Source: Cinnamomum chago (taxonomy: Eukaryota > Streptophyta > Magnoliopsida > Laurales > Lauraceae). Taken from it: a stretch of DNA of 64,000 nucleotides. The stretch spans positions 27,535,001 through 27,599,000 of the forward strand of contig CP142461.1 in assembly GCA_038049695.1 (NCBI GenBank), written 5' to 3'. This document shows, piece by piece, positions 707 through 63,366 of the stretch (position 1 is the stretch's first letter; each line of letters begins with the position of its first letter). Both the position numbers and the translations under genes were made by a program. Under the pieces are notes generated by a model. It ran no database searches, was not told the origin of the DNA, and saw only the letters and a list, made by a program, of their open reading frames with translations.

Positions 707-3700
707 TGTAAGACCCCGACCCGAGTGAACCCGATTAGTGCTAATTTAGTTGCGTGTTAGTACTAAGCTCGATTAGTGATTTTGACTAAGTGGAGTTTGG
801 ATTAGCTTTGTTTATAGTTTTGGGCTAATTTGAATGTTTTGATTTGCTTTGTGCTAGTAGGGCCCTTTGGGGGTTCCCTTTCTTGACATTGCATATGTTT
901 GAGGATTTATCGGAGGTTTTTACATTCATGATTTTAATCCCGTTTTACTCGCTTTGATGATCCCTACAACTTTTATGTTGATCCCGTTTTCGTTTGAGAT
1001 CCCGAAACCCGAATTCTTGGCCTTGAGGGCAAAACAGTCATTTCACACCAAATCTGTACCCAAACTCAATATTCTCGAAACCCGCGAAACATATACTTTT
1101 TGGAAACTAGATATTTCGACGAACATTTCTTCCTTCTTCGTCGAATTCATCCGAGGTTCCGATAGAGATGATTTCAGCCCATTTAGTTCCTTTAGTAGTG
1201 GGACCCAATTCATTGTTAACAAAGGGGAAGCCATTAACCCATTCACTTCACTTCCATTTTTCCAGCACAAGAGGTGAGAGCTAGGGTTTCCTTCATCTTC
1301 TTCTTGCTCTTGCCTTTTATCACTCAATCCACTCTCAAGCTTGCACCAAGAGAAGATTAGAGATCATTATCTTCTTCCTCATCACCTTAACTCTCCATTG
1401 ACACCATTGCTAGAGAAAAGCATTCATCACAAGACCTTCTTTGAGCTCACCATTGCCATTAGAGGACCTTGCAAGTAAGTAAACCCCTTCATCTCCTAGA
1501 TTGGTGTTCCTCTAACCCTATAGGAGCTTCACCTTCATTATTGGAAGGTTTCTTGGTGATTTCATTGTTTGACCATGTTAGGGTTTTATTTGAGGATTTT
1601 GCCTTGTAGCTTGGATTCATTGTCTTGGAAGACTTGATAGAGCTTGATTTCTTTGTTAGAAGACCTAAGGCAAGTGAATAAATGATGTTCCTAAGCTTTT
1701 ATTGATTTTTGGACATTTTCCATTAATGTGCATTTATTGCTTTAATTTGAAATGAATGCTCATGATAAGTATTAATGACACATTTATAATCTTGGAGAAG
1801 TAGTGGTTTATGGCAATGAATGTCTTCTTGTTTTGTTGCAAAGGTATATATAGATTGTGAAATGGTTCCCTTCTCCTTTTTCCTTGTGTTGAATGCATGG
1901 TTGATGAAGGAGAATATGGTTGATTTGATGGAGGATTTGTTGTAGTTTGGAGGGAGAAATAGGCCCCTCATTTGATGTGTAAGAAGGGCTAAAAGAAGGT
2001 TGTAAAAAGGAAGAGAAAGAGAGGAACTGAACTGCCCGAAATTCAGTTTCTGGACAGTTCGCTCGAGCGACCTTGACAGTTCGTTCGAGCGACCTGTCCA
2101 GAAAAGGATACGGTTTTCCAGCAGCTTGGTCGCTCGAACGCATTTTAATATCCGCTTGACCGATGGGTTCGCTCGAGCGAACCCTTCGATTCGCTCGAGC
2201 GATGCGGTCTGCCTGAACTGTTTTAATGCACTAGTATAGAAATTTCGACCGATCGATCGGCCCTTCGGTCCGATCGATCAGTGAATTTTGAGATTTTTTT
2301 TATGATTCTTGGTTCTAGGTGGGACCTTGGCTACCCTCCTTGGACTCACTTGACTATATGTGAGCACGTCTTGAGCCGATGCTCCTCACGGTTGGTTTGG
2401 TAACATCGATGTTCACTTCATTCAATCATGAACGGGATGGAATGACGCGATATCTTCTTTATATCTAAATACAAGACTTTTTCCTTAGTTATCGTGAATT
2501 CTATTCCTTTCGATGACTGAGTAGGTTGCTCGATGTCTCCGAATTAACATCATACCTAGGACGGACCGTTTATAGTATTGATTTTCTATCATAACATCTA
2601 GTTATAACCATAAGCTCATTTTAAGTTTTGAAAATTGTAAAAGTGCATAAGGAGCCCGGGATGTCTTCAACTCAAGGAGTACCAAGTCATATCTATGATC
2701 GACATACGGGACCCCTATTCACTCAATTAGATCTTAAAACATTTATCTTTCCCGAATTGGTATAGTTCATCATATTTCTCTATTTCCAAGATTTACATGT
2801 CATGAGTTGTTTTCCCGAAAGCATGATAGTAGCATTGACTTGTCTCGAAATGTATTGCCCGACATGAAATGACAGCGTGCCCTTGAGCACCCCCGTTTTA
2901 CCCGTTTATTTACTGTACTCGATTTACTTGCATATGTCTCGATGTGTTATTTATCCTATGAGTCGGCATCACTAAGCTTGGACACCTTGTTGGTTTGATC
3001 CACCGACTTGGAAATCCCTCTCCCGTCCCGCCAGCTGCAGTTTGGATCCCGATGCCCGGTTTATTACCGTGGTCCCGTCCCGATACCCGGTTCGCTACCG
3101 TGGTCCCGTTCCCGTATAATTATATTGTATATATGTATACGTTGTTTCTCCTCACCTTGCGTGACTGAGATCAACGTCCCGTGATACTGTTGTCACTTTA
3201 GTGACAGAGGACTTAGCTTTATGTGATTGCCACCTTGTTATTCCCGATTCCTTGGATACCTCATATATTTTTATCTTGTTTACTTGTTTTATAGCAAATG
3301 ATTTACCTGTTTTATGAGAGTTCTTGTTTAAACAGATTTCTATGCTTTTCAACAGATTTCATCTATTATATGTTGTTGCATCTTTTCATTCTCTTGCCAG
3401 ACCGTCGTGTCTGATCCTTTGCTTTGGTACTCAGGTCCCGTTGCCGGTTTCCTTGAAGAGGAGCCGGAGGAGGCGGTAGGTGAGCTGCAGCCTCTAGTTG
3501 AGTGGCGTGCTGACGATGTCATGTAGACATCGGGTTGCCAAGAGGCGTAACATTTTGGAGAGGACTTATTAACCATTCTTTTGGGTTACTCTTTTGTAGT
3601 ATTGGCCTTTGTTGGCCTCTAATTTTGGGGAATGTAACTAAATGATATTTTGTCTAACTTTAACAACTTTTGGGAAACTTGCTTTAGATCATTGCTCATT

Positions 3701-3941
3701 CTGATCCAGTTTTGATATTTAATATTAATGCTTGCATGATTAGAGATAGTCTACTATTTGATTTGCTACACGCTTCCGCACTCAACAGAAATATTCATGC
3801 AAGGTTGTGATATCCTCACCGCGGACACCTGTGGGAAATTGAATAAATTAAATATGGTGGATGTAGATAATCCTCACCAATCATCATCCACCCATTAGTC
3901 CCGATCCCGGATTGGGGATTTCCCGGTCCGGGGTCGCGACA
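707..3941 (+). mobile_element. Del/Tekay-like solo LTR nested in the Tat RT gene
   Basis: It begins TGTAAGACCCCGACCC and ends GGTCCGGGGTCGCGACA, so it has TG...CA ends with near-inverted termini. It is flanked by perfect 5-bp duplications AAGGT (702-706 and 3942-3946). Removing the element and one AAGGT restores the RT frame YCYK-VMPFG. There is no second copy of either end and no coding domain inside, so a 3.2-kb solo LTR left by LTR-LTR recombination is the simplest reading. LTRs starting TGTAA(G/C)ACCCC and ending GGGTCG(C/T)GACA are usual for Del/Tekay chromoviruses. A related LTR at 38517 and a more distant one at 19777 are in this window. A 32-bp duplication with CCGTGGTCCCGT lies at about 3049-3115. 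Lineage is inferred, the boundaries are seen. Confidence 0.9.
2051..2283. repeat. Cluster of CpG-rich palindromes in the solo LTR
   Basis: Five copies of a TCGCTCGAGCGA-type palindrome occur within 150 bp: perfect at 2059-2070 and 2191-2202, a perfect 20-bp version GGGTTCGCTCGAGCGAACCC at 2165-2184, and imperfect copies at 2081-2092 and about 2130-2140. A second core follows: CCGATCGATCGG at 2249-2260 (perfect) and a decayed copy at about 2270-2281. They lie in the middle of the LTR, well downstream of where the related LTR at 38517 has its TATA box. Function unknown. Confidence 0.9.
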
Positions 3942-6662: not shown

Positions 6663-6740
6663 ATTGTACTCAAAATGATTGATCAATAAAGAAGAGCCTT
6701 TTGACAAAGATCTGCCTTATGTCCTTCCAGTTGAAAACAA

Positions 6741-7125
6741 GGCTCCGGCCCTCGCGCCAGCCTCCTTGAGTTCGGTCACAGGACCAACTCCCCAAGGCTC
6801 CGGCCCTCGCGCCAGCCTCCTTGAGTTCGGTCACAGGACCAACCCCCCAAGGCTCCGGCCCTCGCGCCAGCCTCCTTGAGTTCGATCACAGGACCAACTC
6901 CCCAAGGCTTCGGCCCTCGCGCCAGCCTCCTTGAGTTCGGTCACAGGACCAACTCCCCAAGGCTCCGGCCCTCGCGCCAGCCACCTTGAGTTCGGTCACA
7001 GGACCAACTCCCCAAGGCTCCGGTCCTCGCGCCAAGCCTCCTTGAGTTCGGTCACAGGACCAACTCCCCAAGGCACCGGCCCTCGCGCCAGCCTCCTAGA
7101 AGCCAGTCACAAGACCAAGGCTCTG
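6741..7125. repeat. Seven tandem copies of a 55-bp GC-rich unit
   Basis: Units begin with GGCTCCGGCCCTCGCGCCAG at 6741, 6796, 6851, 6906, 6961 and 7016, with a final one at about 7072 that is one base longer and then decays. Spacing is 55 bp, which is not a multiple of three, so the ORFs across it are frame artefacts. The array sits right after pol and before the 3' end of the antisense gene. Such tandem arrays in the region between pol and the 3' LTR are common in Tat elements. Confidence 0.95.
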
Positions 7126-19776: not shown

Positions 19777-20121
19777 TGTGAGGCCCCACTCTTTGTGGGC
19801 CCTCTAATTGAGTTTTTGAATACTAATTAATACTAATTATTAGCTAATTATGTTAATTAGGGGTTAATCAGGGTAGTTATGTATTAATCTCCTAAGTTGT
19901 AGTTAGACTAGCTTAGTTGAGTTAGTAGGGAGTCTTGTGTAATTCTAGAGTTAGTAGTGTGATTGGAGGCCCTTACTAGGGTTTTGAGTGAACTATAGGG
20001 GGTTATTCCTAAAAAGCACCTTCTAGAACTTTCCCACCTAAAGACCCATTTGCCCCTAACCCTAACCCTAATCCTATGCAACCTCAAAAGCCATTTCAGT
20101 CATTAGCCACTCCCCCAAATC

Positions 20122-20128
20122 TATAAAA
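20122..20128 (+). promoter_or_regulatory. TATA box of the solo LTR
   Basis: TATAAAA in CAAATCTATAAAACCAGC, about 345 bp from the LTR start and followed by a CT-rich leader (CTCTCATTTCCCTCTTC), as expected for the U3/R junction. Confidence 0.6.
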
Positions 20129-20610
20129 CCAGCACTAATCCCAAGAAAAACCCTAGCAACTATTCCTCTCTCATTTCCCTCTTCTTTCTCTCTCATTTCT
20201 TCCCTAAGAGTTGAGCTACTGTTGTGCTGGAGAAATATACTTAGGAGCTGCAACATCTTCATCCTCATCTTCTTCTTGGATTAGCTTGGTACTCCATAAA
20301 AGGCAAGTGCACTATACTTTTAGCATAGAATGTATGTGGTTTGTTTCCTTGATTCTATGTTTCAATTTAGTCATTAACTTGTGCTAGTTTCACTTTGAGC
20401 TTAGTTGTTTTGGATGGTTGGACATTGATGGATGGGTTTCACCCCCATTTGGAAGATCAATGGGCCTAATTGGTGTTGGATGATGGGCATTATAGTGGTT
20501 TTGTGTTTTTCAATGATTTGGTGAAGTTTGGGAGTGATTGGAGGTGTTTTGGTGGAAAATCGGGTTGAAAATGGAAAAATCCCGAAAACTGGGTTCTGCA
20601 GGATTTTTGT

Positions 20611-21205
20611 AGTGTGCCAGGTTGACCTGGCACTACCAAGGTCGACTTGGGTACACTAAAATCTGCAGGACCAAGTCTCAGTTAGAAAAACTTCTACAGG
20701 ATATATTTCAGTGTACCAGGTCGACCTGGCCCTGCCCAGGTCGACCCGAGTACACTATTTCTACAGAAAATAGCTCCCAGTTGATAATTCCTGCAGGTTG
20801 AGTTTTTCAGTGTACCAGGTCAATCTTGGCCCTGCCCAGGTCGACCGGGAACACTGAAAACTGGGGAAAAACAGCTCCCAGTTAATTCTTCTACAGAACT
20901 GATATTCCAGTGTGCCAGGTCGACCTGGCCCTGCCCAGGTCGACCCGGGTACATTGTTTTTGAAGGAAATGACTGAAAGTTGGATTTTCTCCTGAAACAC
21001 AAGAAATGCAGTGGAAAATGTCTGAAAGCTGGGACATCACTGTTTCCAAGGTTTTTGGTGTATGCGGTCAACCACCCAGGCCAGGAGGTTGATCGGATAC
21101 ATTGGGAACCTTTGAAAACAAATTAAGTCTTCCAGGAGGCCTGAACCAGATTTTCCAGTGCACTCGGTTGACCCACCAGGCTAGGAGGTCGACCGAGCAC
21201 ACTGG
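20611..21205. repeat. Array of GGTCGACC palindromes in about 100-bp modules
   Basis: Four modules start near 20611, 20711, 20808 and 20910. Each has GTGTRCCAGGTCGACCTGG, a short spacer CCCTGCCCAGGTCGACC, and a tail with CTACAG...CTCCCAGTT. Perfect palindromes are CCAGGTCGACCTGG at 20716-20729 and GCCAGGTCGACCTGGC at 20914-20929; the 20614-20633 copy has one mismatched pair. Two looser modules follow at about 21063-21105 and 21155-21205 (CGGTTGACC...GGTCGACCG). Confidence 0.9.
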
Positions 21206-22942
21206 GATCAGTGATTTTCCAGTCTTCAGTAGTTTGGAGTTGTGATCAGTTGTGGGGCCCATTGACCATCCAAATGGACATTTATCAATGTATTAAGCCC
21301 GAGTCAACGGTGTGGCTCAACCTTGACTTCTGGGGACCACCGATTAGGGTTTTGATCGTTTAATCTAAGATGATTAGAGCCTTAAACGTTGTCAATGATG
21401 CCCGTAACCTTAGGAGCACCAAACACAGTATCCTTTGGCATCTGAGACTTCATTTAGAGATCTAATTACCGGAGATGGACCTGAACCTGAATGTGGCCCA
21501 TTACCTAGGATTGGACTGTTGCTATTTTCCCTGTTGATTCTCTTACAGAAGTTCATACTTCACCTTTCTTATTTACTGTCATTCTTATATCCTTAGTGTA
21601 GTTAATAACTGCTAATTAATGGAAATGGATGATCTGAACCTATGATATCTAGAGGTGACCCGATAGTATGATTTGGAGAACATTGACCCGTGTCTGTGGC
21701 TAGGCGGGCCCTTATTGGGCCTAAGTATGGAGATGTGTACCCTTAGATTGGAGAGGTAGTTTATATTGGGATTTTAAGTCATTATGGATTAGAAGGAACT
21801 GTTTATCAGTATAAATGGATATGTTGCCTCGTTTGGACGGTTTTAGACCAGGCCATGTACTGATGGGCCTTGGTATGGATCCAACGAGTGGGCTTGGACT
21901 TGGACTATAATCCATGGACTGATTTGTGTATGAACCGCTTAGAGACTTGGTTAGGACCTTGTTCACGCAAGGCAAAGCTTAGACAGACACAGACCCTTAG
22001 AGTTATTCTTGAGTCGGCATAGACATTCACTCGGTTGATTTAAGCTCAGCCTGTGGACTGATCATCCCCGGTAGGAGCTATTATGAGTGTTGAGAGGCTA
22101 TCATGATGAGCTATGTTGTTAAGACGGACGGTGTGATACCGGGTCCAGTCTTCGAGTGATGAGTGTGATGAGATTGATGAGTGATTTACGGGATTAGTAA
22201 TTCCCAGCACTGGTGAAATTCCTCGCCGCAACTGTGTTCAGTATGGGAGGGCCGCGGCATAATATCCCGCGGTATTCCAGCTCGTGTGAATGTGCCATTT
22301 TGTAGTAGATTAGATGTTGTATATTTATCCTGATTCCTTATGCTTATCTTGCTCAACTGCTTAACTCATTTACCTTGTTACTCCTTAATTTATATACCTG
22401 TCTCTATTCATTTGATATATATGTCGTATGTTATTAGTATATTGTGACTTGCCAGATCTTTTAGATCTGACCCATCTTTGGTGCTTAGGCCTTGACCCAG
22501 AGATCGCAGAGGATGCGCTTGCGCTCGTAGAAGCGCCCGTAGCTGGAGAGTTCGCGTGGGGCCCGGCTGACCCAGATGTCGAGCCGGAGGGTGGAGAGCT
22601 TTTACCAGGGTTTTGAGAGTTCACTTTATTTTGGGTTTTGAGGAAATTTTGTAGTGAGCTGGGTAATTAACAGAAAGGTATTAACTTTTCTTGTCTTACA
22701 ACTGATACTTACAAAACTAGACTACTGTTCAGCTCTCATTTAATACATATATTGATACTCATTGCTTCCGCTTACTTGTTATGCTTCCGCAATTTAAGTA
22801 TTGTTAGTATATCGTCCAAAAGTTTTAAATTGGACCTCACTGCGGGCCTACGATCTTGGAAGTTCTCAGATTTTCCGGGAAGTAGCGCGCCAACTTCGGA
22901 TATTCGAACGACTTTATCGGTATCCGGAATTGGGGCGTTACA

Positions 22943-23843
22943 TTAGATATGTTGACTTTCTAATGAATTACACTTGGAAAAGTAATGAAAACATATGGTA
23001 AAAAAGAAAGTGTCGGAAATGCATTGGGAGATTATATTATGCTCCATTTAATACAGGTGAAATGTACTATTTGAGAATGCTCTTACATATTATACGTGGC
23101 GCTAAAAGCTATAAAGATCTAAGGACAATCAACGGTACTGTGCATGATTCATTTAAACTGGCATGTTCGGAACTTGGATTGCTTAATGATAACAATGAGT
23201 GGGACAATGCGATTTGCGAAGCATCAACTTGGGCTACAGGACATCAATTAAGGAACATGTTTGCAGAAATACTGATATTCTCTGAGGTTACAAATCCATT
23301 ACAATTATGGGAGAAAAATTGTCAATCACTTTCTAAAGATATAACAATGAGACTAGAGAGACAAGGATGCACAATAGATTCAAAATTTTCTATATTTGAA
23401 ATTCAAAATCAGGCACTTATTGAAATCGAAACCATCTTAAATAAAAATGGAAGATCATTAAAGGAATTCACAAATATGCCATTCCCTCGCTATGAAGACG
23501 CCGATTACATCTCAAATAGGCTGCTCCATGAAGAAATGTCCTACAATACTGAAGAACTTATCTTTGAGTTTGATATCTTATGTACAAAACTAAATCAGGG
23601 ACAATCTAAAGTATTTCACAATATCATGACATTATGTCAAGAAAAAAAAAGGTGAAATCTTTTTTGTCAATGGCAGTGGTGGAACAAGTAAGACATACTT
23701 GTGGAAAATAATTATTACAAAGCTTAGAAGTGATGGAAAAATAGTTTTGGTTGTTTCATCATCAGGAATAACACCTTTGTTGTTGTCAAGAGGTCGCATT
23801 GCACACTCACGCTTCAAAATCCCACTGGAACCTCATGAGACAT
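22943..23843 (+). pseudogene. Helitron helicase, fragment 2 (N-terminal helicase with Walker A)
   Basis: Continues YVDFLMNYTWKSNENIW, then GEMYYLRMLLHIIRGAKSYKDL and TWATGHQLRNMFAEILIF, all typical of the Helitron helicase domain. The longest open frame is 23062-23655. It ends in a run of nine A (23642-23650) that is one base too long; the next frame gives FFVNGSGGTSKTYLWK, the Walker A loop. The canonical loop is GxGGTGKT, so here a Ser replaces a Gly. Pif1-like helicase unwinds DNA during rolling-circle transposition. The fragment ends at GACAT (23839-23843), the TSD of the LTR element. Confidence 0.9.
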
Positions 23844-26421
23844 TGATCGTGAGCTCCAAGTATAGAGCCGCGATGTAGTAATAAACTGGTGAGACCGGGT
23901 CGATCCACATGGAGCAATGTAAATTAAGATTCCTTCTCAACTTATACCTGCCCTAAATAAAATCTAATTCTAGCCTAAAATCTAGAAAAAAAACATTCAT
24001 CATTCCTACTTTCCAAAAATTAAATTAATTACAATCCAATGAAAAGAAAACTTCCTAAATCTAAAAATCCTAAAATAAAAAACTAAAATTGCTACAAAAT
24101 AACACACAAGCTAGAACATCAAGAATAAAAAGTACAAAAAAATAAGAAACTAAAATAGAAACAAAAGAAACCTAAATTAAAAAGTTAGTAATGCAATGTA
24201 TGCCATGAGATGCTAAAAATTCTAAGTCTTAAAAACTAGTATGTAGGGCCGTTTTTATGCATGATTTTTCCTAATCTAATGCAACCTAAAACTGAGTTTA
24301 ATGGCTGGGTTTTTAACTACAATGATGCATGAATCAACTAAAAAAAACGGAAGTGAAAAATGTTTTAAAACAAAGAAGATATGAATGCGTAAATATGACT
24401 TTAAAAACTAAAACTGTGCAGAAATTCTGCACGCAGACAGCCTAACATGCCATGCTCAACCCACCGGGTTCACAAACCTCCTGAAATCGTTTGGATCTGA
24501 GATTTTGGGATGTGATAAACCATATGCTGAACTTTAATTTCTCCAAATTTCACAGAAAAATATCATGGTTTGACTGGTCTACCCACTTCAAACATTTTGC
24601 AAAAAAACTGTTTCTGCAGGTTTCCTGAAATTGTACAGAAAGTGAGCTGTTTGGTTGTCCAACATAGGTTCATCAAAACTGATTTTTAATTTCTGTCTTA
24701 AAGATCTGAAGGCTTCAATTTCCAGCTACTTAAACATGCACTAGTCATATGATATGAAGATATATGCAATGAACTCTAATCCCAACCCTAAACTATGCAT
24801 AAAATTCACATAATTGCGTAAGAAGCATAAGAAGAAAAGAAAACAACAACTGTTTGAAATTAAATGTATGTAGTGCAAAAGCATTAAATGTGTGGATTGC
24901 AATGAAATTAAATGTGTGGCATTGACAAGAAATTAAATGTGTGGATTTTTCAATAAATGTAAATGTGTGGGAATTGCAATAAAAATAAATGTGTGATAAG
25001 TGTGCTCTTCTTTTTTTATCCTCAAATCGGGTTCATAAGTACTTATTCCATGCCCTTAGGATCTTGGGTTGTCAATCCAAGAACAACAACAAGGAAAACA
25101 CAATTCAAGCATTAATCACCTAAGAAAAAGAATAAAAAAATCACACTTGTACTAATATGCAATGTTTTTACATAAAAGATGGAGAAATAAAATTCCAAAA
25201 AACAACTACATACTAGGATGAAAGGAACCTCTCTAGTTGAAGCTTCAAGTTGGGACAAGCATTCTTGAAGAGAGATGAGCTATGGTAGAGAAAGGAGATG
25301 GGTAGAATGATGGAGGAATTACACTAGTGAGGGGGTCTTTTCTTTCATGAGAGGAGAGGGATGCATATGCCTTCAATTTATAGATTTTTTCCCTCTTTCT
25401 TTCCTTCTTTGCTCCAAGTTTGTAGCATGCAATCTTCTTTGTATGGAAAGTCCCTTCCTTGGCCAACAAGTCTGCAAAGAAATAGCAAGGTGAGTGAGAG
25501 ATTTCTAGTGCTTTCCATGTGCAGAATTGCAATCTTGAGTAGAAATTATAGCACCAACTTCCAGAGCCCATATCTTCCTCGTTTTAGCTCCGATTGGAGT
25601 AATCTTGGATTCTAAAATTTCTACTCGAAAAGAGCTTTCCAACGGTGTATGGACTGCACCAATCCGACGGCTGGATTAAGAGTTATGGCCAATTTAATAC
25701 TGCTGCCCCTGAAAAATCCGAAAATAATTGTGCACATATGGAATGTTAGTTGTGCAATGGGTTGTGTGGGACCCATGTGGACATCCAAAGGCATCTTGGG
25801 ATATTTCTTTCCATGTTTCTTGACTCTCCTTCCCTCTTTGGTTTGCTTCCAAGCTTCTTTGATTGACTAGTCAACTCTTTTCGCAGACTTTCCTTTCTTG
25901 AATTTCTTTCTTGATTTTTGAGTTTTCAAACTTAGTAAGAATTAGATCTTACCAAATTTGAAATTTTCTTTCTTGATCTTGAAATTACAAATCTAGCTTT
26001 CCATTGTTGACTTTTCAAACTCTCCAAAAATACCACGATATGTGGGTCCATTTTGAAAGATGTCCTACCCTTGATCTTTCTCAAATTTCACCAATGTAGG
26101 TCCATTCTTGATTTCTCCTACACAAATTAAAACAAATGGATTCAAGAATAATTTTATGTAAGGAACTTAAATGGACGATGCATGGGACCGTACTTGATGC
26201 ATAGAAAATAATCGACTTTCCAAAAGTAAATCTCCAAAAATGGCAGGTTTCATGAATTTATGCATAAAGTTTGATTTTTGAGCGAATTATGGATGAATGC
26301 ACTACAATGGACCCTAAATGCATAAAACATGATTTGACACTAAATAGAGTTCTTTAATATCAATAAGCCCTTAAAATGGTCCAAAATGTGTATGAAAATG
26401 TGCACTTTTCAGGACTCATCA
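23844..26421 (-). repeat. 3' LTR (by transcription) of the non-autonomous Athila-like element
   Basis: 2578 bp, homologous throughout to 30207-32795. It contains a short direct-repeat cluster TTAAATGTGTGG (about five copies, 24885-24995) and a minus-strand TATAAATT near 25380. The 108-codon minus ORF at 25245-25571 is also found in the other LTR only because the LTRs are copies. Confidence 0.92.
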
Positions 26422-30200: not shown

Positions 30201-30206
30201 AAAACT

Positions 30207-32795
30207 TGATCGTGAGCTCCAAGTGTAGAGCCGCGATGTAGTAATAAATTGGTGAGACCAGATCGATCCACAGGGAGCAATGTAAATTAAGATTCCTTCT
30301 CAACTTATACCTGCCCTAAATAAAATCTAATTCTAGCCTAAAATCTAGAAAAATACATTCATCATTCTACTTTCCAAAAATTAAATTAATTACAATCCAA
30401 TGAAAAGAAAACTTCCTAAATCTAAAAATCCTAAAATAAAAAACTAAAATTGCTACAAAAGAACACACAAGCTAGAACATCAAGAATAACAAGTACAAAA
30501 AAACTAAGAAACTAAAATAGAAACAAAAGAAACCTAAATTAAAAAGTTAGTAATGCATTGTATGCCATGAGATACTAAAAATTCTAAGTCTTAAAAACTA
30601 GTATGCAGGGCTGTTTTTATGCATGATTTTTCCTAATCTAATGCAACCTAAAACTGAGTTTAATGGCTGGGTTTTTAACTACAATGATTCATGAATCAAC
30701 TAAAAAAAACGGAAGTGAAAAATGTTTTAAAACAAAGAAGATATGAATGCGTAAATATGACCTTAAAAACTAAAACTGTGCAGAAATTATGCACGCAGAC
30801 AGCCTAACATGCCATGTTCAAGCCACTGGTTCACAAACCTCCTGAAATCATTTGGATCTGAAATTTTGGGATGTGATAGACCATATGCTGAACTTTAATT
30901 TCTCCAAATTTCAAAGAAAAATATCATGGTTTGATTGGTCTACCCACTTCAAACTTTTATGCAAAAAAAACTGTTTCTGCAGGTTTCCTGAAATTGTACA
31001 GAAAGTGGGCGGTTTGGTTGTCCAACATAGGTTCATCAAAACTGATTTTTAATTTCTGTCTTAAAGATCTGAAGGCTTCAATTTCCAGCCACTTAAACAT
31101 GCACTAGCCATATGATATGAAGATATATGCAATGAACTCTAATCCCAACCCTAAACTATATATGCATAAAATTCACATAATTGCGTAAGAAGCATAAGAA
31201 GAAAAGAAAACAACAACTGTTTGAATTTAAATGTTTGTAGTGCAAAAGCATTAAATGTGTGGATTTCAATGAAATTAAATGTGTGGCATTGACAAGAAAT
31301 TAAATGTGTGGATTTTTCAATAAATGTAAATTAATGTGTGGGAATTGCAATAAAAATAAATGTGTGATAAGTGTGCTCTTCTTTTTTTATCCTCAAATCG
31401 GGTTCATAAGTACTTATTTCATGTCCTTAGGATCTTGGGTTGTCAATCCAAGAACAACAATAAGGAAAACACAATTCAAGCATTAATCACATAAGAAAAA
31501 GAATAAAAAAATCACACTTTTACTAATATGCAATGTTGTTACATAAAAGATGGAGAAATAAAATTCCAAAACACAACTACATACTAGGATGAAAGGAACC
31601 TCTCTAGTTGAAGCTTCAAGTTGGGACAAGCCTTCTTGAAGAGAGATGAGCTATGGTAGAGAAAGGAGATGGGTAGAATGAGGGAGGAATTACACTAGTG
31701 AGGGGGTCTTTTCTTTCATGAGAGGAGAGGGTTGCATATGCCTTCAATTTATAGATTTTTGCCCTCTTTCTTTCCTTCTTTGCTCCAAGTTTGTAGCATG
31801 CAATCTTCTTTGTATGGCAAGTCCCTTCCTTGGCCAACAAGTCTGCAAAGAAATAGCAAGGTGAGTGAGTGATTTTTTGTGCTTTCCATGTGCAAAATTG
31901 CAATCTTGAGTAGAAATTATAGCACCAACTTCCAGAGCCCATATCTTCCTCGTTTTAGCTTCGATTGGCATAATCTTGGATTCTAAAGATATCTACTCGA
32001 AAAGATCTTTCCAACGGTGTATGGACTGCACTAATCCGACGGCTGGATTAAGAGTTGTGGCCAATTTAATACTGCTGCCTCTGAAAAATCCGAAAATAAT
32101 TGTGCACATATGGAATGTTAGTTGTGCAATGGGGTGTGTGGGACCCATGTGGACATCCAAAGGCATCTTGGGATATCGCTTTCCTTGTTTCTTGACTCTC
32201 CTTCCCTCTTTGGTTTGCTTCCAAGCTTCTTTGATTGACTAGTCAACTCTTTTCGTAGACTTTCATTTCTTGAATTTCTTTCTTGATTTTTGAGTTTTCA
32301 AACTTAGTAAGAATTAGATCTTACCAAATTTGAAATTTCCTTTCCTGATCTTGAAATTAAAAATCTAGCTTTCCATTGTTAACTTTTCAAACTCTCCAAA
32401 AATACCAAGATATGTGGGTCCATTTTGAAAGATGTCCTACCCTTGATCTCTCTCAAATTTCACCAATGTAGGTCCCATTCTTGATTTCTCCTACACTAAT
32501 TAAAACAAATGGATTCAATAATAATTTTATGTAAGGAACTTAAATGGACGATGCATGGGACCCTACTTGATGCACCGAAAATAATCGACTTTCCAAAAAT
32601 AAATCTCCTAAAATGGCAGGTTTCATGAATTTATGCAAAAAGTGTGATTTTTGAGCGAATTATGCATGAATGCACTACAATGGACCCTAAATGCATAAAA
32701 ACATGATTTGACACTAAATAGAGTTCTTTACTATCAATAAACCCTTAAAATGGTCCAAAATTTGTTTGAAAATGTGCACTTTTCAGGACTCATCA
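30207..32795 (-). repeat. 5' LTR (by transcription) of the non-autonomous Athila-like element
   Basis: 2589 bp, matching 23844-26421 with scattered single-base changes and small indels (for example an added TATA in CTATATATGCATAAAATTC near 31156). The TTAAATGTGTGG repeats recur at 31249-31370. Ends with GACTCATCA directly before the GACAT duplication. Confidence 0.92.
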
Positions 32796-33443: not shown

Positions 33444-33994
33444 TAGGGGTGAGCGTCTGTCTAACGAACCGAAAGTTCGATCCGAACCGAACCGAATTTT
33501 TTTATTTGGTTCGATTATACGGTTAAATTGGTTAGGTTCGGTTAAGATTTACAACAAATTTGGATAATATAGTTCGGTTCGGTTTTGGATTTTTTTTCAC
33601 CAAATTAACTGAATTAAACGGATTTATTAATATACATATAAAAGTTTGTATTTTAGATATATAAAATATATAAACTCTTAAGGCTGATAAACTGTTGAAT
33701 ACTTGGTTTTAATATCTTTTTTATTTTGGATATTTAGAATTTGCTAGTTGTCTATACTTTGGGTTTTTTTATTATTGAAATATTCCCAACAAATTTGGGC
33801 CTCATAATAACAAAGCCCAACATATGGCCTTTCGACCGAATTGACCGAAATTTAACCGAAATATTTTTGGTTCGGTCGAATTCGGTTACAACTCATAATT
33901 CGGTCGGTTCGGTTAAGAGTTTCTTCGACCGAAATATTTCGGTTCGGTCAAAATTTTGACCAAACCGACCGAACCGACCGAATACTCATCCCTA
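33444..33994. mobile_element. hAT-type MITE nested in the Helitron helicase
   Basis: 551 bp, starting TAGGGGTGAG and ending CTCATCCCTA (10-bp inverted repeat with one mismatch). A perfect 8-bp duplication TTAAGCGC flanks it (33436-33443 and 33995-34002). Removing the insert and one repeat restores the helicase frame TYLSADTM. The interior is rich in GGTTCGGTT / AACCGAACC motifs. No transposase. Confidence 0.93.
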
Positions 33995-35750: not shown

Positions 35751-36120
35751 TGTTAGGGATTTTGTATATTGCAATTTGATGGATGCATTATCATTTTAGC
35801 ATCATTCGAATTTTCACACATGCATTGATTTAGAAAATCTTGAAATCTTGATTTACACATGCATTTTTTTCAGACTTGTAGGAATATTGATTTATGCATT
35901 TTTTGATTTTAAACTTGGATGCATTTAAATTTGAAAAGGAGTTTTATAAATCAAGCTAGCCTATGTTTTAAATCTTTCAAACCATTTTAGGCTTTTTATG
36001 TTTCATGTTTTTAATTCTCTTAGTTTGATTTAAATCATGATTCCAAGCCTGATTTAATGGTCTAAAAGTCCCCACAAGAAATTATCTTTTAATATGCTTT
36101 TTTGGGGAAATTGGTCCCTG

Positions 36121-36246
36121 GGCCTGGGTCGACCGAGCACATTGCAGGTCGATCGGGAAAGAGCCGTTGGAGCTTTTTTTTTCAAACGGTCAGATTTATG
36201 ACCGTTGAGCCCAGGTCGACCGGGGAAAGGTGCAGATCGACCGGGG
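36121..36246. repeat. GGTCGACC palindromes and a hairpin upstream of the copia TATA box
   Basis: GGTCGACC at 36127-36134, GGTCGATCGG near 36147, CCAGGTCGACCGGGG at 36211-36225 and GATCGACCGGGG near 36235. Between them AACGGTCA GATTTA TGACCGTT (36185-36206) is a perfect 8-bp inverted repeat with a 6-base loop. All lie within 150 bp upstream of the TATA box. Confidence 0.85.
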
Positions 36247-36269
36247 ACTCTCAAGAACTCAATTTTGAG

Positions 36270-36276
36270 TATAAAA
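36270..36276 (+). promoter_or_regulatory. TATA box of the copia solo LTR
   Basis: TATAAAA in TTTTGAGTATAAAATGAGG, located about 520 bp into the LTR and 25 bp after the last palindrome. Confidence 0.7.
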
Positions 36277-37096
36277 TGAGGTTCATTCCTTTGGAAAAGA
36301 AGTTGAAAAGGAGAGGAACTAAGAGCCACTCTTGAGGAGTTTGGAGACAAGGAAAAGGGGAATGAACTAAGAGAGACCAAAGGATCATTAGTAAAGCTAA
36401 AGCTTGGATCAATGAAGTTAAATATTTAAGTAAGCTTTACTTTTATTAATCATATGTTATATGCTTTGTTTAAATTATTGGTAAATGAATTTTAGCATGA
36501 TAACTATGATGTGTTGAATCCATTCTTCATTTAATTTTTGATCTAAGTTGGATTGGATTCTTCACCTTGATTTCAAACCAAGTTTGTTTTAAAATCTTCT
36601 TTAATCATTCTTAGCCAAAATCTTTGATTTCTTTTATAGCATGATTCATTTACTTGGTTGAATCTTTATTTGTTGTTTCCATTCATTTGAACCTTAGTTA
36701 AATTAGTTTGGTTTTGAAAACAACATTGCACATGCATCACATGTTTAGAGTTAATTAGTTTCATACAACTTGTCAACCTTTGATTTTCATTTCATCAACA
36801 AGTTTGTATTCATACATGTGATTTGCATTTCACTTCAATCAAAACTTTTTATGTGCCTTAAACTTTTAAATGCTTTGAGCATATATTGATTGAGCTTACT
36901 TTTTAACTTGATTGAAGTTATCACACACACACACACACACATCATGAGCATACACCTTTGCATTCATATAGTGTTTGTGTGAGTTAGATTTTCAATTTCA
37001 TATCCGCCTATTTTAGAGGCATTGTAATTGAGCTTAAATTGTATCTCTTTTAGTGTTTGTGTAGACACTACTTTGAGAGAAATTATTATTCTTCTA

Positions 37097-37266
37097 AAGG
37101 TTATTGCTTAGCCTAAGAAAAGCATAGTGTAGAGGTTATTGCTTAGCCTTGGAAAATCATCTAGTAAAGGTTATTGCTTAGCCTAGAAAAACACATTGAT
37201 AGGTTGTTGTTCAGCCTAAAAAAACTTAATTGTAAAGGTTATTGCTTAGCCAATTGAAAAGCATAG
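37097..37266. repeat. Five tandem copies of a 33-36 bp unit in the copia LTR
   Basis: Each copy begins GGTTATTGCTTAGCC (one is GGTTGTTGTTCAGCC) and continues with an A-rich tail, at about 37097, 37131, 37166, 37200 and 37236. Repeats of this type are common in the R/U5 part of Sirevirus LTRs. Confidence 0.85.
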
Positions 37267-37517
37267 ATAGTGGAAATCCAGTGGGGTGTTGGATCACAAG
37301 CCGGTAGTGGATGTAGGCATTGAGGCCGAACCATTATAAATCATTGTGTGATGGTGCATGCTTTGTGGTGATTGTTTTTGTTAGCTTCCGCATTTTATTT
37401 TATAATCAACACTTGTGACTAGTTAATTTTAAAGAAGTTAAAATTTGTCATAATTGGTCACTAATTTGTGGCTCACCCTATTCACCCCCCCTCTAGGGTT
37501 AGGATCCCGGACTTTCA

Positions 37518-38516: not shown

Positions 38517-40795
38517 CGTAAGACCCCGACCCCTGATTTTTAGAATTATTGCTAATTAAGTTGTGGGTTAGCCCTTTAAGTGAGATTAGAGGTTGTTTGG
38601 CTATGTTTGTGAGTTAGAATAGCTTTTCATTAATTTTGGAAACTTTAGAGAGCCTTTGGACCTAACTTGATACTCGTATGGTCCTATGTGTCATGCGTGG
38701 TCATCTTGGGGAGGTTTTTCATGGTTCTTGAACATTTCCATTTCGGCTTCGTTTGACTGATCTCATCATTCCCTACAACTTTCATATTCACCCCTCGTCC
38801 CCATTCGAAGCACCAAAAACTAGTTTTCCAATCGTCACTAAATCTGAGCCTAAATTCCGAGATTCCAGAACCATGTCAAATTTATACTTTTTTGGAAACT
38901 ATATTTTATGAGGACAATTTTTCCTTTTTCGCTGAATCCGTCAGAAGCCCAAAAATCAATGTTTTAGCCCATTCAAGTTTAAGTCGCGGTGAGGTCCACA
39001 CCCACCCATTATAAAAGGCTAGCCTCTCTTCTCCTCCTCCTTATCCATTCCAGCAAAAGTGAGAGAGCTCCAGTCCTCTCTTATTCTTCTTATTCTTCTT
39101 ATTCTTGCTTCTTCTCCTTCCAAATCAGCCCCAAACCCTTGCCAAGGAGGAAATTGAGCATGTTATCTTCTTTGCCATCTCTAGAGCTCTCCATAGAAAC
39201 CATTTTTATTCAAATCCTAGCCGAGCAGCCCCTTTTCACCAAGATCCTCTCAATCAGTGGTACTATGTGTAAGGGCTCCTTTCTATCCCTTGATATGTAC
39301 AATATCAGCCCTTAAGGATCAATTTCCCAGCCATGCTTGAGCCAATTCCAAGCCTTTCCTTATTTTCCAATTTCTAGGCTTCTAAGATGGGCATTTTGGG
39401 GGGTTTTTGTGTTAGGTGATATCTCTTAGAATTGGATTGATTATAGGCTTATTTGGGAGCATTGGAGAACAAGTTAAGGGACTGAAATCTGTTTGTTTTT
39501 TTCTAGCATTCCAATAACTTTGGGATTTTTCTAGATTGTTCCTATTCATTGCATTGATTTCATGTTTGATCTCTCTTAGATTCATGGTAATTTGTAAAAT
39601 ATTTTTTCACTTTTAGTATGTTGGGCTTTCTCTTATTTATGTGATTTCCTCTTAGTTTTCTCAAATTTTTGTTCATGTATGATGGTGTTTCTTTAATGGG
39701 AATTTGGAATTAATGGATTTGATTTAGTGCATGGTTCATGTGTTGGAATGGGTGTGGATTGTGGAGGATGAATGTTCGTTTAGAAGGGGCATTGGAGGCC
39801 AAATTTTATGCAGGAAATTCCATGGGAAGGGCTTAAGAGATTGAAGGGAAAAGGACAATAGAAAAGGGCGGAAAACCGAGACAGGAAGTGCCTAGCTCTG
39901 CTCGCTCGAGCGAGCAATGTTCCTAGGAGCGTGGCCCAGGCCAGTGAATAGGCTCACTCGAGCGAACTTTCCCCACTTGAGCAAACCCGTTTGCTGCCCC
40001 AGGTCTTGTGTGATGTTTGAAAATGGCTTTTAGCATCAGAGAAAGGGTTGTTTTGCTTTCTACCCGCACATATGGACCTGAATGGATATAGGCTGGTAGA
40101 AACGGGAGAGAATGAAGCACAAATGTGGGAATCCACCCGGAAACATGCTAAAACTTTGTTAATTGGACAACGTGGACTAGATGCTTGGAATGCCGCCGAA
40201 CTTCAAAAGCGCCAAATAATATGAGAAATCCGGCTTTCCAGGGTCCACGTGCAGTCTCAACCTGTCAACAAGACGTGTTTTTGGAAATTCATAGTTGTGG
40301 GATTCGCCCGAATGTACCTATTTTAATTTCATTGTTCATTTTTACTGATTTAAACTTCATTTTTTATGCTAATTCGATTCATAGTCTGCTAGATATTTAC
40401 CTGTTTTGGCTTTAATCGCCTAGTATTACTCGTGTTGACTAAAAATGATCGATTCTGTTATTTAGTTCGTTTTGACTAAAAACGACCAATTTTGTTTTTT
40501 AGTGTGTTCCAATGAGCTTTTATATGTACCTCGGGAGGACTACTCTTTATGTTCATGTGTGTGTATTTGACTTAGCTTGTTTGAGTAATTCCTCACCATG
40601 CTATGTGTGTTAGTTCCCCTTCAATTTGTGAAACGTCACCACTCAGCTTGGGCCACCTTGTCGGCTTGATCCACTGGCTTGGGGCCTTAATCTATTCTTA
40701 GCCAACTGCAGCTTGGATTTCTTAGTATATTATTTTGCTCGGTTCTTCGGCCGGTGCCTAGTGTGATGGCCAATTATATTGTCTTATTATATGTA
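38517..40795 (+). mobile_element. Third Del/Tekay-like LTR, interrupted by a Helitron
   Basis: Starts (T/C)GTAAGACCCCGACCCC and runs parallel to the solo LTR at 707. Matching blocks include ATTGCTAATTAAGTTG, CCCTACAACTTTCAT, CTTGG(G/A)CCACCTTGT(C/T)GG(C/T)TTGATCCAC and AATTATATTGT near the end. TATAAAA is at 39010-39016 and a CT-rich leader follows. The homology stops at 40795, where the CTAG end of a minus-strand Helitron begins. The remaining 0.8 kb expected from the 707 copy was not found to the right. Confidence 0.75.
39900..39985. repeat. CTCGAG-core palindromes in the third Del-like LTR
   Basis: GCTCGCTCGAGCGAGC at 39900-39915 is a perfect 16-bp palindrome. TCACTCGAGCGA at 39954-39965 and CCACTTGAGCAAACC near 39972 are decayed copies. 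The core matches that of the related LTR at 2059-2202, and the position relative to the TATA box is about 890 bp downstream. Confidence 0.85.
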
Positions 40796-54204: not shown

Positions 54205-54438
54205 TGATAAGAGCCTAAAAAGCACCATTTAGGCCCCTTAATTTAGACTTTGATATACGCTTTGATGAGTCTAATTAGTCTAATTGTAGTATTTTCATGT
54301 TTACAGGTGTTCGAAGTGCATTGGAAAGAAATTGGTGAAAGATAGAAAAATTGGCGAAAAATCAGAAGAACTGGTGCTCATTGGCACTAGGGGTCCGGAT
54401 GCTCGGTCACAGAGACGCGTAGGACATAAATTGGTCCT

Positions 54439-54452
54439 GGCGTCCGGACGCC
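54439..54452. repeat. GGCGTCCGGACGCC palindrome upstream of the Athila TATA box
   Basis: A perfect 14-bp palindrome. A half-site GGGTCCGGATGC lies near 54388. The same core is repeated at 61384-61570 in the pol-env spacer. Confidence 0.9.
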
Positions 54453-54510
54453 CTGACCGTATGAGAGTCCGTCACATGCGCGTTTTGACGAGGTTTTTCA
54501 TCCCAAAACT

Positions 54511-54518
54511 TATAAATA
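54511..54518 (+). promoter_or_regulatory. TATA box of the Athila LTR
   Basis: TATAAATA in AAAACTTATAAATAAGAGCC, 306 bp into the LTR. Confidence 0.7.
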
Positions 54519-55302
54519 AGAGCCCAAACTCGTGTTTGGGCACACGCACATCTTGGGCAAGGTCTGGAGCAAGGTTTTGGAGCTTTTGGAAGCACGTCAA
54601 TGGGGATTTCATCAGAGATTTTTCGCCAATCGTCTTTCATGCGTAACTAAATCCTTATCTTTGGGTTGCGATGAAGCCCTAATCTCTTGTTTATGGTGAT
54701 GTATAGGTTTAGGGTTTTATTTTAAACGCTTTTGGTTATATGACTAGATGTTAATCCATTGATTGGATTTTATTAATGCAATATCTCTTTCTTTGGTATT
54801 TTAATCTTGTAGATTTGAATACTAAGTCATATAATGATGTTTGAATGAATGTGTTTGTTAGATCTAGGATAATCTATGCCATAGAGATAGGTTATGCCCC
54901 GATTCACATTCACATCCCTTATTTGTTGACTCTGAAGGTTTGTAACCAGGATGAGTCTCTATAGCGTTGATAGTGAAACCCTAGGTCTATACTTGCCATT
55001 GTGCGAGGTTAGAGTGGATTCGTACCTGTAGATCTTTTCTATGATTGAATCAACCCTGTCTTTTAATTTGTTAATTTAGGAATTACAACCAATCAACCCA
55101 ACACTTCGATTTCTAATAGGATTAGTTTAATAATCAGAACTTTGTTTTCCAATAGGATTAGTTTAGGAATTTAGGAAACAACACAACTTAGCCTTTTTGT
55201 CCCAGTGGATACGATACTCGGTTAACATCTCTGCTATTTCAAGCGGAGATGATAGCGGAGAATAAATTATATTTGCAACCTTGTTTAAGATTGGTCAAAT
55301 TT

Positions 55303-61129: not shown

Positions 61130-62122
61130 AAAGTACTTGATGTCTAGCTGACGACGTTAAACCAAGCTCTTGCGGGAGGAATCCCGAGTGTAGATAGAGT
61201 CGTAGCGTAGGTGTCAGTGTCTTTTCATCCTTTTTGTCGTCAAAATTGAGTCCGTTTTTAGTCATCCACGTTGGAGGAGGGGGACACCTTTAGGTGGTTA
61301 GTCCTCACCATTGAGAGAGAGTTTTGGTGTAAAAAAAAAAATTAGGGCGTCCAGATTTTTTAAAGCATGCTGCTCTCTGGAATGGGACGTCTGGACGCCA
61401 GGATCTGGGCATCTGGACGCCAGGATCTGTTTTAAAGGGTCAAGTCTCTGTCTCTGGGCGTCTGGACGCCGGAGATTAAAAAAAAAAACCTGCTTTCTGT
61501 CTCCGGGCGTCTGGACGCCCGAAATTATTTGAACATTCTTGCTCTCTACCTCCGGGCGTCTGGACGTCGGAATTTTCCAAAAAAAAAAACAAACGTGGGA
61601 CACATCCTAGCAGCCCCTTCCCCATTCTCTTTTCCTCTTCTTCAACCCCCCCGCCCCCCCTTCTTCTCTCCTTCTCTCCCACAACCAACCCTCACCACCA
61701 CATACACCACCACCACTCTCCTCCTCCATTTTTCTCCACCACCATTGCCTTCCTCTCCTTCCCCTCTTCCATTCTATCTCATTCTTCTATCAAACAAGTG
61801 CCACCGGAACCCACATTCCAGCCGGCGACGTCCACGCTTTCCAGTTAGATCTCCGGCGCTCGAGTCTCTACAACTAGTTAGCACACTTGGGTTCTCTTCC
61901 CAACGAGCACTTCTACGCGCCGGCAGTGCCCGTTGATCTCCGGCGAACTTTTCGGTCATCTTCTCCGGTGACTTCACCGGAGCTCCGACGAGCAAATTGT
62001 GGGTAAATTTCTTTTTACTTGTTTTTCCTTACTGTTCTTTTTCTTAGTTATTTTGCAATTGTGTTAAGTTATTTTAGGTTTGTTTTTCCTTTTTAATTAT
62101 CATTTCAAAAACAAAACAAAAA
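61130..62122 (+). other. Spacer between pol and env-like ORF with leader-like sequence
   Basis: Begins with the Athila-typical GTCTAGCTGACGACGTTAAACCAAGC. After a palindrome array comes a strongly CT/CA-rich stretch (61600-61790, CCACAACCAACCCTCACCACC) and sequence like a 5' leader (61800-62000, CCGGCGACGTCC...CGGTGACTTCACCGGAG). A possible splice donor TGTG|GGTAAATTTC is at about 62000. No TATA box seen. May carry the promoter or splice signals for env-like expression. Confidence 0.5.
61384..61570. repeat. Array of GGCGTCTGGACGCC palindromes
   Basis: Five copies about 30-60 bp apart: GGACGTCTGGACGCC near 61385, GGGCATCTGGACGCC near 61408, GGCGTCTGGACGCC at 61457-61470, GGGCGTCTGGACGCCC at 61505-61520 and GGGCGTCTGGACGTC near 61554. 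Each is a near-perfect palindrome with one mismatched central pair. The core is that of the LTR palindrome at 54439. Poly(A) runs separate several copies. Confidence 0.9.
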
Positions 62123-63366
62123 ATGTTTCGAAGGGGGAGAAGTAAGTCCAAGGCCCCTACAGATGAGGGCTCCTCCAATCCACAACCACACAAACGAAGT
62201 GCACCCACTCCTACTCTTGAACAACCATCTATAGATGGGCCAATCGACCTTTAGAAAAGCAAGCCACATTTGACTTGAATTTTTTTTAAGCCGACCAATC
62301 CACACATTGGGCGGTTCAGCAATTACGTTTGCGTCAATGGACGGCTCTATGTGGACCTTTTCCCTCGGCGTGCCCTCGTTTGGTATGCCTTTTCTACCAA
62401 AATTTGGAAATCAAGGGGCAGAACGACAATGTCTTATCCTCCACCATTGATGGACATGACATTACTGTAACCGAGAGGGCCATTGCTCATGCCCTCGGCT
62501 GTAACCCCAATGCAGGTGATTTTCCATTTTTTCCAGCCACCCCCACTGTGGCTAGTATCACCAATGAGATGTGTGAGGGTCGGTTTAGCAAGGCAAACTA
62601 CACGAGCACTCATCGTAGTTACCTACCTCAACGGATGTGGCTGATCGATCAAGTGCTGCGTGTAAATGCATTCCCCACGCATCACAAGGACGAGAGGAGG
62701 GGGGACTTCCTCGTCACTTTGTACGCTATCCAGGTTGGATACGTGGTATCTCTCCCACGTATGATTTTTCGAGAAATGTGCAAAGTCTATAGGCTCTTTA
62801 CAGAGTCTAAAAAAGATCCGGAGAAGAAGAGACCTTTGTCTTTCCCTCATTTAATCACCAGGTTACTTCTCTCTCGTTCGGGTCCATTGGTTGTCGCCTA
62901 TCCCATTCACCTGCTAAGGAGTCTATCCCATGTTCTGACCTCTACGGTGAGGTGCGATGGACACAGAGTGTCCAGACCATTTTGCGTAATATGCAGCACG
63001 CTCACCCTGCCATGATGCCGGGAGTAGACGCACCTGTGGTTGAGCCACCGGTGCCACCTCAAGCCCCTCCTATTATACACCCTCCTGCGGGGCAGGCTGA
63101 CCCGTTCTACATGACCTATGCCCAGTACGAGGCTATATATCCTTCAAGGTCAGCAGGCCCTCCAATCCCGTCAAGTGGCCTTTGAGTCCCGCTTTGAGGA
63201 CTTTGCCACTCGCACTATAGACTCTCTTTTCGAAATGCGCTCTTTAATGAGAGGTCTGCGTAGCCTTTCCCCTCCTCACAGAGATGATCACATGCATGAT
63301 GGAGGTGGAGGGGCTGGCCATGGCGGGGATGGGAGGATGATTGAGACTGTTTCTTTTTCTTTTTAG
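62123..63366 (+). pseudogene. Athila env-like / plant transposon ORF
   Basis: Three pieces in different frames look like one protein: 62123-62254 (MFRRGRSKSKAPTDEGS), ~62330-62940 (the main conserved part, LVCLFYQNLEIKGQ, ITVTERAIAHALGCNPNAGDF, YLPQRMWLIDQVLRVNAFPT, RRGDFLVTLYAIQVGYVVSLPRMI), and ~62950-63366 (Pro-rich, then ALQSRQVAFESRFEDFATRT coiled coil and a Gly/His-rich end). The middle matches the 'putative plant transposon protein' family (Transposase_32) found in the env position of Athila elements. A clear signal peptide or fusion-type membrane anchor is not visible. Shifts lie near 62270-62330, 62940 and 63120. Role unknown. Confidence 0.8.

Follow-up and report, generated by a model that had tools for sequence, protein, structure and literature searches.

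Paired palindromes in long terminal repeats of Tekay-like, Athila and Sirevirus-like retrotransposons of Cinnamomum chago: candidate operator arrays for dimeric regulators

Nested retrotransposons are found in the 64,000-bp window of the Cinnamomum chago genome analyzed here (positions 27535001 to 27599000 of contig CP142461.1, G000:C11:27535001-27599000 in our numbering; the genome comprises 1.061 Gb in 14 contigs), and several of their long terminal repeats (LTRs) carry arrays of GC-rich palindromes. The recurring unit of these arrays is a pair of palindromes about 20 to 23 bp apart, roughly two helical turns. Judged by sequence, the unit occurs in Tekay/Del-like and Athila LTRs (Ty3/gypsy) and in Sirevirus-like LTRs (Ty1/copia). 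We think that the palindromes are probably DNA operator arrays for dimeric regulators, with a probability of roughly 0.55. The LTRs of the window are called A to D and the Athila element E (Table 1); other loci are given L numbers. We take E to be an Athila element, and A to C are presumably of the Tekay/Del lineage, based on their LTR ends and layout.

Results

The perfect palindromes named in the original prediction are present in the window (Table 1), except at 36127-36246 in D, where only the 8-bp cores (GGTCGACC) are perfect and the extensions are imperfect. Their number also exceeds that in shuffled controls, as had been expected. The window holds 10 GC-rich perfect palindromes of at least 12 bp, compared to a mean of 1.7 when the whole window is shuffled (maximum 5) and 2.5 when 500-bp blocks are shuffled (maximum 6; 60 shuffles in each case). 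Eight of the 10 fall in the arrays of Table 1 and two in Athila coding DNA, and all eight copies of GGTCGACC and all four of GCTCGAGC in the window lie in arrays. When single elements were compared with 300 shuffles, CpG palindromic 8-mers were in excess in A (4 versus 0.77; 2/300 shuffles reach this count), C (8 versus 0.61; 0/300), and D (2 versus 0.06; 0/300). There was no such excess in B (94/300), the Athila LTR (55/300), or the region before the env-like gene (none observed), and the LTR pair at 23843-26421 and 30206-32795 has no CpG palindromic 8-mers. The LTRs with CTCGAG palindromes at 2.0 and 39.9 kb, A and B, are homologous (61% identity across the first 700 bp) and their arrays lie at nearly the same LTR offset, so the shared core is not independent.

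The enrichment holds beyond the window. A 200-kb sample, made up of twenty 10-kb pieces taken at round-number positions from ten of the 14 contigs, contains 32 GC-rich perfect palindromes of at least 12 bp versus 4.95 in shuffles (20 shuffles; maximum 9), with GGCTAGCC, GGTTAACC, and GGGCGCCC as further cores. The excess is found in a few cores when these are compared with their reversed words: 19 versus 3 for GGTCGACC, 14 versus 0 for GGGCGCCC, and 13 versus 2 for GGCTAGCC. The sample also has 52 occurrences of CGG-N4-CCG, compared to 6.7 after shuffling, and 27 versus 0.7 with a symmetric center. Spacers of 3 and 5 gave 4 and 10 occurrences, and spacers of 2 and 10 were raised too (19 and 26).

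The sites in A, C, and D are paired with cores 20-22 bp apart, and outer inverted arms enclose the pairs in A unit 1 and in C. In the 200-kb sample, neighboring imperfect GC-rich palindromes form 18 pairs at 20-24 bp versus 0.1 after shuffling, with one pair at 15-19 bp and none at 25-29 bp. Genome-wide, TTCGCTCGAGCGAA occurs 6,954 times and its reversed word not once, and pairs of GCTCGAGC with a gap of 2-32 bp occur 16,231 times versus 127 for the reversed word, which is also a palindrome. The first 13.5 Mb of one contig provided 50 forward places of GCTCGAGC pairs with 45 distinct strings, some of them related, and in these the spacing is 19-23 bp in 35, 29-33 bp in nine, and 12 bp in one. 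Six cores (GCTCGAGC, GGTCGACC, GGCTAGCC, GGTTAACC, GGGCGCCC, and GTCCGGAC) were found in pairs 18-23 bp apart.

Two of the lineages keep their palindromes at a fixed distance from the TATA box. In four Athila LTRs with 53-75% identity, the palindrome centers lie 65, 65, 64, and 65 bp upstream of it. The proximal cores of five Sirevirus-like LTRs, including D (53-67% identity), start 35-38 and 56-60 bp upstream (35 and 56 bp in D), and the site nearer the TATA box is imperfect, reading GATCGACC in D and L086 and GGTCAACC in L098. Variants of the Athila LTR palindrome recur as arrays upstream of the env-like gene. We picked ten other Athila copies across the range of env identity (62-87%) and found palindromes of the GGCGTCYGGACGCC type upstream of the env-like open reading frame (ORF) at least twice in eight copies, once in one, and not in the remaining one. 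The sites at 61384-61570, first assigned to an LTR, are outside it, between the Athila pol and env-like ORF; the assignment of palindromes to Tekay/Del-like, Athila, and Sirevirus-like LTRs otherwise stands.

Some further features were seen around these promoters and arrays. By eye, 61600-62122 shows a pyrimidine-rich leader, a possible intron, and an ATG ahead of the Athila env-like ORF, an arrangement that resembles an ordinary plant gene with its own promoter. In the Sirevirus-like promoters (36185-36206 in D, and its homologues L086D, L098D, L103D, and L104D), AACGGTCA..TGACCGTT or variants stand upstream of the proximal pair, and CTAGCCGTT is found near the TATA box in four of the five (not in D). 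These motifs resemble what we take to be the MSA element of cell-cycle MYB factors. L104 differs from its relatives in that its Sirevirus-like LTR has AGCGGCGG...CCGCCGCT, an inverted repeat some 105-150 bp ahead of the TATA box, in place of the distal palindrome pair. The word AAGGCAAGTG, presumably a GC-AG splice donor consensus, occurs ahead of the arrays at 1667 in A and at 20300 in C, where it is downstream of the TATA box, and the arrays of A and C may lie in an intron of the 5' leader.

The core differs between related LTRs. The Tekay-like LTR of L086 is 76% identical to A at LTR positions 1-1257 and 74% identical at 1897-3141, and that of L088 is 63% identical at 716-1257 and 88% identical at 1897-3235 (up to 99% in 100-bp blocks). 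Between 1257 and 1897 neither has similarity to A, and they have arrays of the GCTAGC type there versus CTCGAG in A; the array of L086 also has one GCTCGAGC. L081, which has CTCGAG, aligns to A throughout at 84%. The GCTAGC cassettes of L086 and L102 are 69% identical, yet outside them the two LTRs can be aligned only close to their ends (63 and 61%). This conflict between cassette and LTR body points to cassette exchange or, alternatively, to a cassette that some lineages kept and A replaced. In the Sirevirus-like LTR of L098, five of the seven array sites, including that at -60, read GGTTAACC and two read GGTCAACC, where the relatives mostly have GGTCGACC. In the Athila LTR of L120, the fixed site is GGTGTCCGGACACC, a paired change from GGCGTC..GACGCC to GGTGTC..GACACC. 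Such paired single-site changes are C-to-T on both strands and could be made by two deaminations; for five like sites within a single array this explanation is less easy.

The expectation that cores are swapped while symmetry is kept is thus supported between families, as far as these alignments go (the Tekay-like cassettes, L098 with GGTCGACC to GGTTAACC, and L120). It failed within arrays. Of 192 pairs, 156 are intact, 28 have a one-sided change, two a compensatory change, and six a two-sided change without compensation, and the counts of other and two-sided changes are inflated by three rows (39977, 54394, and 21162) in the wrong register. Since departures mostly break the symmetry, single copies decay without repair, and maintenance of symmetry in local palindromes within an array was rejected for the copies at hand.

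Members of the two superfamilies share sequence around the sites. C and D have GCCCAGGTCGACCGGG and GGTCGACCGAGCACA in common, words of 16 and 15 letters that extend past the core, and GTGTACCAGGTCGACC and CCAGGTCGACCCGGG are present in both C and the Sirevirus-like LTR of L086. Between C and the Sirevirus-like LTRs of L098, L103, and L104, there is no common word of at least 14 letters, simple runs excluded. In 200 shuffles of C versus D, the longest common word was 15 once and never 16, and when the flanks of D's two sites were shuffled, extensions as long arose at a P value of 1.5e-4 for their sum. Either one factor may read both LTRs, or a module may have been exchanged, or the sites may have converged.

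Table 1. Palindrome arrays and the elements that carry them (positions within the window)
Feature	Position	Strand	Description
A	707..3941	+	Solo LTR, Tekay/Del-like; TG...CA ends, 5-bp duplication AAGGT on both sides
A unit 1	2045..2105	+	Two CTCGAG palindromes: TCGCTCGAGCGA 2059-2070 perfect, 2081 one mismatch; 9-bp outer arms TCTGGACAG/CTGTCCAGA
A unit 2	2155..2205	+	20-bp perfect palindrome GGGTTCGCTCGAGCGAACCC 2165-2184 plus perfect TCGCTCGAGCGA 2191-2202; cores 22 bp apart
A unit 3	2240..2285	+	Perfect CCGATCGATCGG 2249-2260 plus CCGATCGATCAG 2270-2281, 21 bp apart
C	19777..22942	+	Tekay/Del-like (from layout only) solo LTR flanked by the duplication TTAGA; TATA 20122
C array	20610..21206	+	Six units of ~50 bp with two GGTCGACC-type sites apiece; perfect palindromes CCAGGTCGACCTGG 20716-20729 and GCCAGGTCGACCTGGC 20914-20929
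D	35751..37517	+	Solo LTR, Sirevirus-like; poly-C run close to 3' end
D array	36127..36246	+	Two pairs of GGTCGACC-type sites; TATA 36270
B	38517..~40745	+	LTR fragment homologous to A; TATA 39010; 3' limit approximate
B array	39899..39966	+	18-bp CTCGAG palindrome TGCTCGCTCGAGCGAGCA 39899-39916, perfect, plus second copy with one mismatch
E 5' LTR	54206..55297	+	Athila; primer-binding site 55303-55320 follows
E LTR palindrome	54439..54452	+	GGCGTCCGGACGCC, perfect; center 65 bp upstream of TATA (54511)
E pre-env array	61347..61570	+	Five copies of the GGCGTCTGGACGCC type plus a half copy, located between pol and env-like ORF
E env-like ORF	62290..63015	+	PF20167 (E value 1.9e-17); pyrimidine-rich leader ahead

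Discussion

Sites about two helical turns apart allow two protein dimers to sit on the same face of the DNA, and a dimeric DNA-binding protein fits both this spacing and the fixed TATA distance in Athila and Sirevirus-like LTRs. The fixed distances, together with the weak folding of the Athila promoter palindromes (z scores of -1.2, -2.3, 0.1, and -3.3), favor DNA sites. The basic unit would consist of two dyad-symmetric operator sites 20-23 bp apart, each occupied by one dimer. In Athila and Sirevirus-like LTRs the sites would act as upstream promoter elements with a fixed place just upstream of the TATA box, and the Athila variants before env would probably be the env-like gene's own promoter or enhancer. 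The Tekay-like array would be a cassette 0.5-1.1 kb downstream of the TATA box and would probably serve as an intragenic enhancer, with RNA hairpins formed in addition. Families may change the core and keep the symmetry through tandem duplication, replacement of whole cassettes, and concerted spread of one variant through an array, and this turnover could be driven by selection, either for new regulators or for escape from a repressor. A wider version of this idea is that paired operators are shared by Ty1/copia and Ty3/gypsy elements and that the core is a changeable recognition code, altered by cassette replacement, array conversion, and module exchange between superfamilies. The driver would then be a contest with a dimeric DNA-binding factor, be it a host repressor or, as with VANC, an element-encoded activator, and the Athila env-like gene would be part of the circuit. 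We put this forward very tentatively.

Several observations weigh against an operator role, among them the folding, flank, and count results discussed with the alternatives below. Of ten Athila LTR windows, three had a palindrome upstream of the TATA box, and the others missed the LTR or were without a palindrome. The Tekay-like arrays are downstream of the TATA box (0.5-1.1 kb in C and 0.9 kb in B), at no fixed distance. In the 200-kb sample, GCTCGAGC and its reversed word are equally frequent (6 and 6), and the arrays of L096 and L101 match none of the LTRs of the window and could be assigned to no lineage. The genome-wide spacing result covers one core only (GCTCGAGC). A spliced mRNA has been predicted for Athila env (PMC2829016), so an own env promoter is not required. 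The proposal of a lineage-independent role in dimer binding has the two-turn spacing and the fixed TATA distance of Athila and Sirevirus-like LTRs in its favor. The role of the arrays need not be the same everywhere, as those of Tekay-like LTRs combine a downstream place with strong folding and those of Athila an upstream place with weak folding.

An RNA role is one alternative: the transcribed pairs would form hairpins of about 20-25 bp that are cut to small RNAs or serve packaging or dimerization of the genomic RNA, and the symmetry would persist because selection acts on the structure rather than the sequence. The arrays of B and C are downstream of the TATA box and hence in the transcript, and all 18 Tekay units tested fold better than shuffles (z scores from -3.3 to -9.8; median, -5.6). 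The unit of A at 2045-2105 forms a 61-nucleotide hairpin with a stem of 23 pairs and one mismatch (z score, -9.2). A downstream place with strong hairpins makes an RNA role possible for them. The Sirevirus-like distal units also fold well (median z score, -5.1; -0.8 to -7.2; n = 4), as do the proximal ones in part (median, -3.4; 0.0 to -4.0; n = 5), but the proximal pair of D reaches only -0.6 or -1.4 in two computations. Outer flanks are complementary to their own partner in 87 of 184 cases versus 57 with swapped partners, and complementary outer flanks are not needed by a plain operator. In C, 13 of 720 permutations of the outer arms, counting the true one, pair as well or better, owing to units u5 and u6, which have lost local symmetry (4 of 7 pairs) and kept the long hairpin; in u1-u4 the arms pair no better with their own partners than with swapped ones (8/24). 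Palindromes of maize Sirevirus LTRs have been reported as small-RNA hot spots (Bousios 2016, as described in PMC10760457). The Tekay folding and the match between own outer arms suggest that hairpins may matter. However, a hairpin requires neither palindromic arms nor a spacing of 20-23 bp, and the Athila palindromes stay at their fixed place upstream of the TATA box and fold weakly, so that we consider RNA structure a doubtful explanation for the arrays in general.

It is rather improbable that the palindromes have a purely mutational origin, in which template switching during reverse transcription makes one arm a copy of the other (quasi-palindrome correction) and the result is multiplied by tandem duplication. 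Two arrays are indeed tandem repeats, with an offset of about 98 bp in C and about 49 bp before env, and a change throughout the array is seen in L098, with GGTTAACC at five of seven sites. Flank similarity near the cores is the same in direct and inverted orientation (0.47-0.52), so part of the pairing may be tandem duplication. Mutation alone leaves unexplained the fixed promoter-proximal site, the site before env, the confinement to one LTR zone, and the narrow spacing of 20-23 bp. Chance combined with shared ancestry would mean that a few LTR families happen to carry palindromes and that their copies inflate the counts. A, B, and the other Tekay-like LTRs are homologous and the copies within an array are not independent, and palindromic GC-rich 8-mers taken together are only mildly raised in the 200-kb sample (132 versus 91.6). 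A loose count (7-bp arms, spacer of 0-3, one mismatch) was reached by 2/300 shuffles in A, 8/300 before env, 20/300 in B, 24/300 in C, 59/300 in the Athila LTR, and 66/300 in D; because it is also high in Athila coding DNA (22 versus 8.9; 0/300) and in Tat pol (12/300), it is no evidence by itself and was rejected. Six different cores in pairs 18-23 bp apart and the palindrome excess of the 200-kb sample make chance and ancestry a very improbable explanation.

The closest known system is the RM (repeated motif) box of Sireviruses, a palindrome found upstream of the TATA box and, in elements with env, also upstream of that gene. A comparison with other Ty1/copia elements led Bousios et al. (2010, PMC2829016) to call it Sirevirus specific. 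The grape RM sequence given there, CGGTCGACCG, is present in the Sirevirus-like LTRs of L086, L103, and L104, and D has GGTCGACCG, with an imperfect left half. The palindromic box with the CGG-CCG signature is found, as CGGTCGACCG or CGGTTAACCG, in all four D homologues, and the Tekay-like LTRs of L086, L098, and L102 have an RM-like signature in CGGCTAGCCG. It is absent from the CTCGAG sites of A and B, and Athila GTCCGGAC has the half-sites in the other order. A cluster shortly upstream of the TATA box is seen in D, its four homologues, and four Athila LTRs, and not in B and C; extra copies upstream of env are seen in E (61347-61570) and, at least one, in 9 of the 10 other Athila copies. Because E (Ty3/gypsy, Athila layout) and the Tekay-like LTR of L098 (L098m; Tf2-type SH3) do not belong to Ty1/copia Sireviruses, we do not class these arrays as RM boxes, only as arrays that work alike. 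Five points go beyond the RM boxes as described in the cited parts of that paper: the like arrangement of the Athila arrays, the palindrome pairs of Tekay-like Ty3/gypsy LTRs, the pairing at 20-23 bp, the constant distance between pair and TATA box, and the swap of cassettes. We found no description of paired palindromes in Athila or Tekay LTRs in the literature surveyed, mostly open access, and these five points appear to be new relative to it.

Concerted change of motifs is known from VANDAL transposons, where short motifs change together within tandem arrays in noncoding parts (Hosaka et al. 2017, PMC5735166). The VANC21 motif in that report, YAGTATTAY, lacks palindromic symmetry and is recognized by a protein that the element itself encodes, whereas the LTR arrays are palindromic. 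A similar modular evolution is known from Tnt1 and Retrolyc, in which the U3 regulatory module is renewed and the remaining parts of the element stay conserved (PMC1838419). The main text of that paper does not use the word palindrome, and we found no symmetric core replacement in its cited part. The maize Sirevirus LTRs have palindromes of the CACCGGAC-N3-GTCCGGTG type in a cis-region, as described in the cited part of PMC10760457; the present arrays differ in lineage and core. The cited part of PMC2829016 treats palindromic boxes of this kind as a Sirevirus peculiarity. If two further lineages, both Ty3/gypsy, do share the paired unit and preserve its geometry while exchanging its core, it would be a common regulatory interface of plant retrotransposons, its binding partner could be fished out with defined probes, and past conflict between elements and host regulation would be recorded in its turnover. 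For the env-like gene, the Athila result provides a testable promoter candidate. We know of no element-encoded protein that reads arrays in these LTRs, and the Athila PF20167 ORF is suggested, by position only, as a candidate.

Other features of the elements and the window

LTR A (3.2 kb) sits within the reverse transcriptase of a gypsy pol, whose domains were detected, and has no recognizable TATA box. LTR C does not align to A or B. The units of its array are enclosed by outer arms of the CAGTGTACC/GGTACACTG type and every unit folds as a hairpin, with u5 and u6 decayed as palindromes. E carries gag (PF03732), integrase, and the env-like PF20167 ORF in the Ty3/gypsy Athila layout. L098m is located 3' of an integrase C terminus with the Tf2-type SH3 domain, and the Tekay-like LTR of L102 is followed by TGGTATCAGAGC. 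The same word follows the LTR of the D homologue in L104, whose 531-amino-acid gag-like ORF matches no Pfam family and shows, by eye, a CCHC knuckle; no pol was seen within the stretch examined. Rfam and tRNA scans of the window found nothing, and IMG/VR searches gave no useful relative; in one of them, the 80 loci kept out of 288 were hit inside query residues 2-94, the part resembling RNase H, and were left aside. Fragments that by eye look like a Helitron helicase occur at 22949-23655 and 32854-34575, beside LTR C and around the element with LTRs at 23843-26421 and 30206-32795; two ORFs tested from them had no Pfam match. Tandem arrays are present at 46134-47936 (units of about 188 bp), 48926-50425 (about 105 and 276 bp), and 6738-7118 (about 55 bp).

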